Source of the DNA: Cetobacterium sp. NK01
GTDB lineage: Bacteria; Fusobacteriota; Fusobacteriia; Fusobacteriales; Fusobacteriaceae
DNA: 64,000 nt
NCBI RefSeq assembly: GCF_024506395.1
Contig: NZ_JANIBO010000001.1
Location: forward strand, 806,001-870,000
Reading direction: 5' to 3'
The notes below the pieces were generated by a model that did not search any database, was not told the DNA's origin, and worked only from the letters and a program-made list of their open reading frames with translations. The position numbers and the translations under genes were made by a program. Below, one piece after another: positions 3,657 to 60,013 of this stretch (the first letter of the stretch is position 1; every line of letters starts with the position of its first letter).

Positions 3657-3741
3657 TGGTGGTGAGAGAAGGATTCGAACCTTCGAAGGCAGAGCCGTCA
3701 GATTTACAGTCTGATCCCTTTGGCCGCTCGGGAACCTCACC
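3657..3741 (-). tRNA. tRNA-Tyr (GTA)
   Basis: An 85-base class II tRNA with a long variable arm, acceptor stem GGTGAGG/TCTCACC, encoded CCA and the T-loop GGTTCGAATCC. The anticodon loop CTGTAAA gives GTA. It is the last of three tRNAs before tuf. Confidence 0.96.
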
Positions 3742-3760
3742 ATATCTTATTTAATTTTAA

Positions 3761-3835
3761 TGGTACCCCGTAGGGGAATCGAACCCCTGTTTATAGAGTG
3801 AAAATCTATTGTCCTTACCACTGAACGAACGGGGC
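3761..3835 (-). tRNA. tRNA-Glu (TTC)
   Basis: A 75-base cloverleaf with acceptor stem GCCCCGT/ACGGGGT (one G-U pair at the end), encoded CCA and GGTTCGATTCC in the T arm. The anticodon loop ATTTTCACT gives TTC. Confidence 0.96.
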
Positions 3836-3840
3836 GTTCA

Positions 3841-3916
<76 letters not shown>

Positions 3917-48433: not shown

Positions 48434-49036
48434 TTAAATTAACACTGTTATTATGAATTGTGCAACACCTATAAGTCCACCTAAAATTGCTCCAATTATC
48501 TCTATATGTTTTAACTCCTTTTTAGCTAAAGAGAATGTTATTCTTTCTAATTCTTCTAATGAAAAAGCATCTACTTTTTCAACTATAATCTCTTTGAAAT
48601 CAACATTTTTTTCTAAAGTTTCAAATAACATAGATATTATCTGATCTTTATTTTCCATTATTGATCCTTTTATTGCTTCCTTTATCTTATTTAAAGCAGA
48701 TTCATTTAAAAACATAGCTATCATAGGAAATTTAGCAGTTATTTCTGATGCTAATTTCTTTTCTAATATACTATCTATTATTTTTTCCATTTGAATATCT
48801 AGGTTTGCATTTTCCAATTTTTTCATTATATCATCTATTGATATTAATTCTTTTTGAATTGTATCTGCTAAAGTTATTCCAATTTCATGTCTTCTTTTAG
48901 GTATTAATCCTTGAATTTTAAAAATCCCTAGATTTATCTCTTTATATGGTCTAAATAACATTTTTATAGCAATATAATTTGTAATCCATCCAATCATTGA
49001 TCCAATAACAATTAAAAGTACCGCTTTTATCAACAT
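48434..49036 (-). CDS. DUF445-family membrane protein
   Basis: A 200-residue protein with membrane helices at both ends (about 2-22 and 180-199) and an amphipathic helical middle. DUF445 traits are ITNYIAIKMLFRPYKEINLG and GLIPKRRHEIGITLADTIQKEL, followed by the closing LGGLIGVAQFIITVLI. Function is unknown; relatives include Bacillus YheB. It is the first gene behind the promoter at 49082-49110 and precedes ruvB by nine bases. Confidence 0.88.
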   Translation of the reverse strand: MLIKAVLLIVIGSMIGWITNYIAIKMLFRPYKEINLGIFKIQGLIPKRRHEIGITLADTIQKELISIDDIMKKLENANLDIQMEKIIDSILEKKLASEITAKFPMIAMFLNESALNKIKEAIKGSIMENKDQIISMLFETLEKNVDFKEIIVEKVDAFSLEELERITFSLAKKELKHIEIIGAILGGLIGVAQFIITVLI

Positions 49037-49162: not shown

Positions 49163-49190
49163 TTGTATTATTTTTTATTTATGCTATAAT
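49163..49190 (+). promoter_or_regulatory. Promoter of the tyrosine-leader/AGCS transporter unit
   Basis: A perfect TATAAT (49185-49190) preceded by TTGTAT (49163-49168) at a 16-base spacing. Transcription would start near 49197, just before the leader-peptide binding site. Confidence 0.7.
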
Positions 49191-49218
49191 ACTTTAAATA
49201 ATTAAAAGGAGGAAAGTA

Positions 49219-49275
49219 ATGAAGCAAAAAATAGTTTTTAATACAAATACATATTATTACTATTATTTAACCTAG
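49219..49275 (+). CDS. Tyrosine-rich leader peptide (attenuator uORF)
   Basis: An 18-codon reading frame encoding MKQKIVFNTNTYYYYYLT, with five consecutive Tyr codons at 49252-49266. AAAGGAGG sits seven bases before the ATG, as strong a site as those of real genes here. It lies about 20 bases after the predicted start of transcription and ahead of a set of competing hairpins and an intrinsic terminator. This is the arrangement of ribosome-mediated amino-acid attenuators such as the Trp and Phe leaders of enterobacteria. I infer that it senses charged tRNA-Tyr. Confidence 0.85.
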   Translation: MKQKIVFNTNTYYYYYLT

Positions 49276-49398
49276 GATTGGTATTTTTGTTTCATGAAAA
49301 AATACGAATCCATTTTGTGTTACTTTAATAGTAGTAAGTGGATTTGTTACATAGAACTGTTAATTTACAGCCTGTGGAGTTAATCCACAGGCTTTTTT
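49275..49398 (+). promoter_or_regulatory. Transcription attenuator with competing hairpins 1:2, 2:3, 3:4
   Basis: Segment 1 (GGATT 49275-49279 plus GTATTTTT 49281-49288) pairs with segment 2 (AAAAATAC 49298-49305 plus AATCC 49307-49311), 13 pairs with one mismatch. Segment 2 (AATCCA 49307-49312) can instead pair with segment 3 (TGGATT 49339-49344), supported by an inner TTACT/AGTAA stem. Segment 3 (GTGGATT 49338-49344) can pair with AATCCAC (49382-49388), which is the 3' arm of the terminator. A ribosome at the leader stop (49273-49275) covers segment 1, so 2:3 and then the terminator form. A ribosome stalled at the Tyr codons leaves 1:2 free to form, which releases segment 3 for antitermination. 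Confidence 0.75.
49370..49398 (+). terminator. Leader terminator ahead of the AGCS transporter
   Basis: Nine-base perfect stem GCCTGTGGA/TCCACAGGC (49370-49378, 49384-49392) with a five-base loop and six U residues. It lies 34 bases before the transporter ATG, so transcription must read through it for expression. Confidence 0.92.
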
Positions 49399-49431
49399 GT
49401 TTTTATTTTAAATTTTATAGGAGGTTTTATT

Positions 49432-50772
49432 ATGTCTATTTTAGAAAATATCGTCGATTTTTTTAATTCAATTCTTTGGGGGAAAAATATTTTAGTAGTT
49501 TTACTTATATCTTCAGGAATCTTTTTTACAATAAAAACTAATTTTGTTCAAATTCGTTTTTTAAAACACATGATTTTGCTATTAAGTGACAAATCAAATA
49601 ATGATTCTGAAAACCTTTCTCCTTTCCAAGCTTTCTGTATAAGTACAGCTACTAGAGTTGGTGCTGGAAACTTAGCTGGTGTAGTTAGTGCTATTTCTAT
49701 TGGAGGAGCCGGATCTATATTTTGGATGTGGGTTGTTGCATTTCTTGGATCCGCAACAGCATTTGTTGAAACAACATTGGCTATGATTTTTAGAGAAAAA
49801 GATAAAAGTGGACATTTTTATGGTGGACCGTGCTTCTTTTTAAAAAATGGTCTTGGTAAAAAAAGTTGGGGAATTGCATTTGTTGTTACTGGAATTATAT
49901 GTTGGGCTGGTGTTTTACAAGTTGTTTCTAATTCAGTTACAGAGTCTTTTAATGTCGCTTTTAGCATAAGTCCTATAGTTATATCAATACTTTTAACTCT
50001 ATTGGCCGCTATTGTTATATTTGGAAAAACAGATAAAACAGCTAAAGTTTTAGATAAAGTTGTTCCTATTATGGCTATTTTATACCTAGCTATTGTATTT
50101 TTTATAATTTTAAAAAATATTACACTTTTACCTCAAGTATTTTCACAAATTTTTTCTGAAGCTTTTGGAGTTAGACAAGGAGTAGGTGGAACTATTGGAG
50201 CCATTATTATGCAAGGAGTTAAAAGAGGATTATTTTCTAACGAAGCTGGAACTGGAAGTGCCCCTTGTGCTGCTGCTAGCGCTAATGTTTCACATCCTGT
50301 TCAACAAGGTTTAATTCAAAGTTTAGGGGTTTTTGTAGATACTTTTGTTATTTGTACTGCTACAGCACTCGTTATGTTATTAACTAAAAGTTCAGTTATT
50401 GAAGGTTTAAGTGGAATGGAACTTCTACAAAAATCTTTCAACTACCATCTAGGATCAACATTTGGTGAAATTTTTGTTGCTATTATACTTTTCTTATTTT
50501 GTTTTTCTACTCTTTTAGGAATTTGTTTCTATGGAAAAGTTAATGTAAAATTTTTAACTGATAAGGATTTTGGACAAACACTATTCAAAATATTTGCCCT
50601 TTCAATGATTTTTTTCGGTGGAATCCAACAAAATATATTTATGTGGAATTTAGCAGACCTTGGTTTAGCTCTTATGACGATTATCAATATGTCTGGTGTT
50701 CTCCCACTTTCTAAATTTGCGTTTGATTCTTTAAAAGATTACCAAAAAAGATTTAAAGTTGTCGAAGCTTAA
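49432..50772 (+). CDS. AGCS-family sodium:amino-acid symporter, possibly for tyrosine
   Basis: A 446-residue carrier with about 11 membrane helices. Family landmarks are RVGAGNLAGVVSAISIGGAGSIFWMWVVAF (read in pieces near 75-105), the helix-5 region and RGLFSNEAGTGSAPCAAASA (near residue 265). AGCS proteins usually import alanine or glycine with sodium or protons. The Tyr-codon leader and attenuator upstream predict induction by tyrosine shortage, so tyrosine or an aromatic precursor is the better guess for its cargo. AGGAGG lies upstream of the ATG at 49432. Confidence 0.9.
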   Translation: MSILENIVDFFNSILWGKNILVVLLISSGIFFTIKTNFVQIRFLKHMILLLSDKSNNDSENLSPFQAFCISTATRVGAGNLAGVVSAISIGGAGSIFWMWVVAFLGSATAFVETTLAMIFREKDKSGHFYGGPCFFLKNGLGKKSWGIAFVVTGIICWAGVLQVVSNSVTESFNVAFSISPIVISILLTLLAAIVIFGKTDKTAKVLDKVVPIMAILYLAIVFFIILKNITLLPQVFSQIFSEAFGVRQGVGGTIGAIIMQGVKRGLFSNEAGTGSAPCAAASANVSHPVQQGLIQSLGVFVDTFVICTATALVMLLTKSSVIEGLSGMELLQKSFNYHLGSTFGEIFVAIILFLFCFSTLLGICFYGKVNVKFLTDKDFGQTLFKIFALSMIFFGGIQQNIFMWNLADLGLALMTIINMSGVLPLSKFAFDSLKDYQKRFKVVEA

Positions 50773-59664: not shown

Positions 59665-60013
59665 GGGGATGCAAAGGTTTCGACAGGGTTGTGAGGTTAT
59701 AGGTAGCAGGCCAGGTTGATCGCTGTGAGAGATCAACTCATCGTTTAGATGGAAACAGAAATTACGCTTTAGCTGCATAATGTCAGCTCACCTCTGAACA
59801 TTCTTTTCTGTAGGAGCGTTCAATCAAGGTGTCACTTAAAATACAGATTACCCTAAACGATTTCTCTAAGTTCTAGGGGACATTTTAGAGAATAGCTTTA
59901 GTTAGCCCTGTTTGCGGGAGTAACTATCGCGAAATCAAATAGCAAACTAAGCTTGTAGAAGCTTATGGCGCTTGCAATTTTGGACACGGGTTCGATTCCC
60001 GTCATCTCCACCA
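59665..60013 (+). ncRNA. ssrA: Transfer-messenger RNA (tmRNA)
   Basis: A 349-base one-piece tmRNA. The tRNA-like ends pair as GGGGATG with CATCTCC, with encoded ACCA and the T arm GGGTTCGATTCCC. The tag frame at 59751-59780 reads GGA AAC AGA AAT TAC GCT TTA GCT GCA TAA, so the tag is GNRNYALAA after the tRNA-borne Ala; the YALAA ending is the usual protease signal. Pseudoknot stems are present but not traced in detail. Partners smpB and rnr are at 22228-24821. Confidence 0.96.

Follow-up and report, generated by a model that had tools for sequence, protein, structure and literature searches.

The window, by which is meant the whole 64,000-nucleotide stretch of Cetobacterium sp. NK01 DNA that was analysed, carries an attenuator region (49207–49398) between a minus-strand gene and the gene of an AGCS-family carrier (Table 1). 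The carrier scores well above the cut-off of TIGR00835 (443.9 bits, cut-off 272.65), and tyrosine is probably its substrate, as predicted from the leader without any transport data. If the putative extended −10 element upstream is used, the transcript would start at approximately 49197; the element was not listed by a consensus promoter scan because of its weak −35, and a TATAAT box is present at the same position in the Cetobacterium orthologs of the locus. Elsewhere in the window, Rfam matches at gathering mark a tmRNA gene and three tRNA genes (59665–60013, plus strand, and 3660–3916, minus strand).

Table 1. Features of the carrier locus, in window positions
Feature	Position	Strand	Basis
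Minus-strand gene 5' of leader region	48434–49036	−	
Putative extended −10 promoter element, TG-C-TATAAT (TGCTATAAT)	49182–49190	+	Sequence reading
Shine-Dalgarno of leader ORF, AGGAGG	49207–49212	+	Conserved in orthologs
Leader ORF MKQKIVFNTNTYYYYYLT with stop TAG	49219–49275	+	Sequence, ortholog conservation
Control codons, five consecutive Tyr	49252–49266	+	Kept in 16/16 nearest AGCS orthologs; cognate residue in other classes
Hairpin 1:2, segment 1 GGATTGGTATTTTT and segment 2 AAAATACGAATCC, 13 pairs	49275–49311	+	Folding, covariation, swap test
Alternative hairpin 2:3, excludes 1:2	49304–49347	+	Folding, pairing statistics, swap test
Near-invariant element ATTTTGTGTTA directly 3' of segment 2	49312–49322	+	Class-weighted column frequencies
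Extended antiterminator	49338–49388	+	Constrained folding energies
Intrinsic terminator, 10-bp stem (49369–49393) then T run	49369–49398	+	Folding; two-sided changes in family
Shine-Dalgarno of carrier gene, AGGAGG	49419–49424	+	Sequence
AGCS-family amino acid:cation symporter, 446 aa, predicted tyrosine importer	49432–50772	+	TIGR00835; substrate inferred

The leader ORF opens with the ATG at 49219, has 18 codons and closes with the TAG at 49273–49275, the last G of which is also the first base of hairpin 1:2. It is a short ORF with a ribosome site of its own, as evidenced through sequence and conservation, and its translation is inferred. Runs of five Tyr codons occur at six places in the 3.1-Mb genome, two of them overlapping, and only the run in the window belongs to a short ORF that is preceded by a ribosome site.

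Hairpin 1:2 is made up of 5 + 8 pairs, while helix 2:3 has nine, joining ACGAATCCA (49304–49312) to TGGATTTGT (49339–49347) around an inner TTACT/AGTAA stem. The extended antiterminator combines three parts, in which GTGGATT (49338–49344) pairs with AATCCAC (49382–49388), CATAG (49350–49354) with CTGTG (49372–49376) and CTGT (49357–49360) with ACAG (49367–49370). The fold of the leader RNA lies 7.5 standard deviations below dinucleotide shuffles (z = −7.5), and the fold from 49271 onward 5.6 below them. A preliminary description of this DNA had correctly read the strong ribosome site, the 18-codon ORF with five Tyr codons in a row, the contact of the leader stop with segment 1 and the 13 pairs of segments 1:2. 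Other parts of it needed revision: the 2:3 pairing, given as AATCCA/TGGATT, is present and excludes 1:2 but is longer than described; a terminator does precede the symporter gene, with a stem of 10 pairs rather than nine; and the 3:4 pairing of GTGGATT with the terminator 3' arm is real, but is merely the outer part of the longer antiterminator. This exact 3:4 pairing is clear in Cetobacterium and weaker or different in more distant orthologs. Directly 3' of segment 2, the aligned family members share the near-invariant consensus ATTTTGTRTTA, which lies mostly outside the modelled helices. It is placed where a synchronising pause would be expected, just after 1:2, and a role as polymerase pause or binding site is conjecture.

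In the mechanism proposed here, stalling and the response to tyrosine are, like the substrate of the carrier, inferred in the absence of expression or transport data. When tyrosine is plentiful, the ribosome would reach the stop codon and cover segment 1, upon which 2:3 would form, segment 3 would be locked and the terminator would end transcription. When tyrosine is scarce, the ribosome would stall at the first Tyr codons, hairpin 1:2 would form, and segment 3 would be left free to pair with the terminator 3' arm around the CATAG/CTGTG hairpin, allowing the carrier gene to be transcribed. Without translation, the stretch of Tyr codons is predicted to pair with the segment 3 region while 1:2 forms, and termination would be the default. 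The best reading is that the carrier is turned on when charged tRNA-Tyr is scarce, with nothing experimental yet behind it.

Orthologs of the AGCS carrier were obtained from a protein search over 61 genomes of the taxonomic family. The Tyr5 leader, the 1:2 and 2:3 segments and the terminator are present in all 16 of the closest orthologs, which belong to five genera, so that Tyr codons and pairing segments are conserved among these relatives. The AGCS orthologs in a Fusobacterium-like genus (g4), in g5 and in genome G060 are without the leader attenuator, and a single branch of the carrier tree (support 84/78) separates the leader-bearing proteins from the rest. Genera g13 and g14 have a tandem of Tyr attenuators before one carrier gene (L022 and L023, also L021 and L027), the first with Tyr5 and a terminator and the second with Tyr6 or Tyr7, different helices and a second terminator. 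One ortholog, L011 (G002:C11), has an in-frame TAA in the matched region, which points to a disrupted gene or to an error in the sequence.

Covariance models extended the search beyond the carrier. With the first, R1, the regions before tyrS, aroF, trpS, metY and a His-type ABC system matched more weakly, and their codons fit the genes; independence of the codons is claimed only for the later models R2 and R3, from which the codon region was left out, so that codons there constitute independent evidence. The E-values of all three models are rough. Matches were found in 46 of 98 Fusobacteriota genomes with R2 (E ≤ 1) and in 61 of the 98, from 17 of 29 genera, with R3 (E ≤ 0.1). The family lies upstream of tyrS, trpS, thrS, metG, hisZ-like genes, asnA, metY, metN, putP, aroF, aspartokinase and asd, and 118 members were parsed. 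Seven of these are in the window's genome, namely AGCS-Tyr, His ABC (L253), MetN (L254), PutP (L174), an SNF symporter (L175, leader FWWWP), L255 and L256. A control search of 79 AGCS loci (550 kb), nearly all outside Fusobacteriota, gave noise of at most 27.1 bits except at the Cetobacterium locus L035. The single element that had been envisaged at first is supported but was underestimated, since it belongs to a wider family in Fusobacteriota whose codons can be exchanged. Of 60 parsed model matches, 12 were rejected as chance or leaderless terminators (e.g., L210, L217, L227, L236–L242), and antisense matches over the window's leader (49227–49317, minus strand) were ignored because they arise from palindromic helices.

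Leaders were picked only by ribosome site and stop position, and gene identities were assigned by NCBIfam or Pfam on representatives. The leaders contain HHHHH before the histidine-type ABC protein and hisZ-like genes, LNMMMMLWKGL before metG and metN, NNNNNNGNMSGF before asnA, QPIPPR before putP, WWW before SNF-family symporters, WW before trpS, TTTT before thrS and YYYYY before tyrS, with a mixed aromatic NWYFYYYF before DAHP synthase. In 65 of the 69 members with independently set specificity, the residue most enriched in the leader is the cognate one, whereas 20,000 label shuffles averaged 12.9 such members and never exceeded 27. Each of the 12 classes has a cognate majority residue, and the four non-cognate cases are all putP leaders, in which Pro codons number only two. 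The 69 members are related within classes, and hence are not 69 independent events. The His ABC class was excluded from the final concordance count because NCBIfam gives no substrate for it.

Some members depart from the common layout. Loci L255 and L256 (G000:C1:1362551–1362675 and G000:C2:44266–44393) have the aromatic leaders FWFTYYF and FWFMYYF; with L287, they precede genes for a multi-pass membrane protein to which no NCBIfam model matches and a glycerol-dehydrogenase-like protein, and the aromatic link is unexplained. The Asn (L191, L200, L203) and Met (L190, L195) leaders run through segment 1 and keep extra residues (NMSGF, LWKGL); their stop codon thus does not fall at segment 1, where it stands in the Tyr, His and Pro classes. 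Several Pro-class members (putP leaders L174, L208 and L225) have no clear terminator at the modelled place, and it may lie further downstream, or there may be other control.

Covariation was assessed in 48 members aligned to R2, an alignment fitted to the 1:2 and terminator helices. All ten modelled 1:2 pairs and all nine modelled terminator pairs change on both sides among these members, and 93% of cells in these helices are paired, as opposed to 74% in shuffles and at most 44% with the partners slid. Helix 2:3 was not in the model and segment 3 was not aligned by structure, so its statistics are weaker than those of 1:2: 74.7% of cells are paired against at most 41% when slid, two-sided changes number 27 against 15.7 in shuffles, and the covariation score alone is not clearly beyond shuffles (43/500). 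In a swap test that depends little on the alignment, segment 1 was paired better by the segment 2 of its own member than by those of other classes (mean z −1.5, negative in 12 of 12 classes), and so was the downstream region (mean z −1.7). Segments 1, 2 and 3 change together between classes, as in the trios of aroF (GGATTTGT:ACAAATCC:GGATTTGT), metY (GAGTTTGT:ACAGACTC:GAGTTTGT) and putP (GGATTTGTG:TACAGATCC:GGATCTGTA). Two suppositions of the preliminary description, that the pairing segments would co-vary and that the helices exclude one another, are thereby upheld, the exclusive 1:2 and 2:3 being backed by both covariation and the swap test.

The switch was modelled with constrained energies. 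Equilibrium base-pair probabilities were discarded for this purpose, as the full-length terminator wins in every state at equilibrium, which means that kinetics must decide, as they do in known attenuators. Once 1:2 has formed in the window, the extended antiterminator and the terminator are nearly isoenergetic (−32.0 and −32.5 kcal/mol), while with 2:3 formed only a short antiterminator remains (−17.7) and the terminator (−28.5) is ahead by 10.8 kcal/mol. When any antiterminator is allowed, antitermination gains 3.5–11.8 kcal/mol in all 14 distinct orthologs if 1:2 rather than 2:3 is formed, an energetic coupling of the kind that was sought by folding the leader and comparing energies. Its mean over these orthologs is approximately 6 kcal/mol, in an equilibrium model only, compared with averages of 0.7–2.7 kcal/mol for composition-matched random terminators and linkers. 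The coupling in the window itself (6.3 kcal/mol) is matched by 7 of 60 random versions and is within reach of the null, and the family therefore outweighs the single case as evidence. An antiterminator that is nearly isoenergetic is found only in some Cetobacterium and at locus L012, being approximately 4–8.5 kcal/mol short elsewhere. With a ribosome placed at the stop codon, the probability of 2:3 is 1.0 in all 16 sequences; without translation, the Tyr codons are predicted to pair with segments 2/3, and nearly all 16 form 1:2; and in many orthologs a stalled ribosome leaves 2:3 in competition with 1:2. Pairing of the control codons with the stretch just 3' of segment 3 (codon:3b) was rejected as a family-wide feature, being strong for the His class (mean z about −5) and not significant for the AGCS class.

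With a probability of roughly 0.88, the element is a sensor of charged tRNA-Tyr that works by ribosome-mediated transcription attenuation, and belongs to a homologous Fusobacteriota family with exchangeable codons. The leader, its codons, the exclusive covarying helices, the terminator, the energetic coupling and the codon-gene concordance in relatives are established by sequence and computation. Prephenate dehydrogenase (PF02153) was not found above cut-off in any of 12 Cetobacterium genomes, with 14 of 14 control genomes positive, and tyrosine must therefore probably be imported; Cetobacterium is probably unable to make it, and a tyrosine-gated importer would be sensible.

The alternative that survives best accepts the Tyr attenuator as real and supposes that the carrier mainly moves another substrate (e.g., alanine, glycine or glutamine), being induced by general starvation that is signalled through tyrosine. 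Characterised AGCS members do transport alanine, glycine or glutamine. Glutamine is documented as a substrate of the family (PMC12795558). The codon nevertheless fits the gene in the classes of known specificity, and the leader marks one AGCS clade, with no strong match from the leader models at the other AGCS copies of the window's genome, so this alternative is considered unlikely without being negligible. Fewer grounds remain for the suggestion that the leader peptide arrests its own ribosome on free tyrosine in a TnaC-like manner, with tyrosine as an inducing ligand instead of tRNA charging as the signal. It would use the same sequence parts, some classes keep extra residues (LNMMMMLWKGL, NNNMSGFGLK), and induction by tyrosine is sensible if an organism consumes it. 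However, the leader outside the Tyr run varies between genera (KQKIVFNTN, FRFRKINTT, KKSNFITTL), and the same RNA carries gene-matched His, Met, Pro, Asn, Trp or Thr codon runs, as expected of charging sensors, which makes such arrest improbable. Control that is mainly translational, by coupling or reinitiation at the carrier with the terminator incidental, would agree with a leader ORF near the gene, but compensatory changes preserve the terminator stem at nine of nine modelled pairs, the terminator ends 38 bases 5' of the carrier start codon, and the carrier ribosome site is outside the helices; little can be said for it. A chance Tyr run with hairpins, to be considered in AT-rich DNA where TAT runs are not rare, is rejected on the z of −7.5, the lone short-ORF Tyr5 run with a ribosome site in the genome, the conservation in 16 orthologs, the covariation and the 118 parsed members.

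Beyond the attenuator as such, a wider proposal can be advanced tentatively, with the odds that all of it holds falling slightly short of even. One codon-swappable scaffold would be the Fusobacteriota counterpart of the T-box, reaching at least eight specificities (Tyr, His, Met, Trp, Pro, Asn, Thr and mixed aromatic) by codon exchange and helices covarying in threes; ATTTTGTRTTA would serve specifically for polymerase pausing or for the action of a factor; two Tyr attenuators would be stacked in series in some genera; and the AGCS clade would be a new tyrosine-specific carrier. If true, this shows how fusobacteria, which are almost T-box-free, adjust the uptake of amino acids and the charging of tRNAs to what is available. 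The codon rule would also assign substrates to carriers (tyrosine to the AGCS clade, tryptophan to the SNF-family symporter, histidine to the ABC system), and a natural series of one RNA scaffold re-targeted many times would make the design rules of attenuators readable from evolution. The element is apparently missing from Rfam, and the covariance models could be used to annotate it phylum-wide.

No Rfam family, riboswitches included, matched at gathering at the locus or at 12 family loci. The trpB motif (RF04312) is alike in having a hairpin followed by a terminator and aligns to 49307–49404, but at 31.6 bits against a gathering threshold of 59 (E = 0.21) the element is not a member. The T-box (RF00230) serves a similar regulon of tRNA synthetases and amino acid carriers with specificity by codon identity, but senses uncharged tRNA directly without translation; no T-box match was found in Cetobacterium, the window's genome and locus included, and few in the phylum, and none was found in the two Fusobacteria/Thermotogae genomes of an earlier study (PMC2494555). 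Leader-peptide attenuators outside Proteobacteria have been predicted in Actinobacteria (trp, ilvB, trpS and leuS; PMC1262725) and for His leaders of Bacilli (PMC2965389); these concern other phyla, and no Tyr leader is reported in the parts of those papers that were available. Two further uORF-associated structured RNAs, uORFC-13-1 upstream of aroF in Acholeplasma, which adjoins a terminator, and uORFC-8-2 (cysS, Rhodobacterales), termed a ribosome-mediated attenuation sequence, differ in belonging to other taxa and having a single specificity (PMC8632094). No leader-peptide attenuator of Fusobacteriota and no Tyr-specific leader attenuator was found in the open-access literature (subscription journals were outside the search), which agrees with the preliminary description, where no Tyr-specific leader for a carrier of the AGCS family was known. 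The mechanism class is known, and the modular Fusobacteriota family appears to be new with respect to Rfam at gathering and the searchable open-access literature.

The classical leader-peptide attenuators are those of trp, his, phe, thr, leu and ilv in Proteobacteria. The element was said from the outset to follow the same logic, and the parts are indeed shared: a leader ORF with control codons, exclusive helices, an intrinsic terminator and, by inference, a stalled ribosome that decides between them. Whereas the proteobacterial attenuators use 1:2, 2:3 and 3:4, the Fusobacteriota relay has more pairing elements, namely 1:2, 2:3, an antiterminator of segment 3 with the CATAG hairpin, and codon:3 pairing. 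In contrast to Proteobacteria, one Fusobacteriota scaffold serves at least eight specificities, including Tyr, Asn and Pro, and widely controls carriers and tRNA synthetases.
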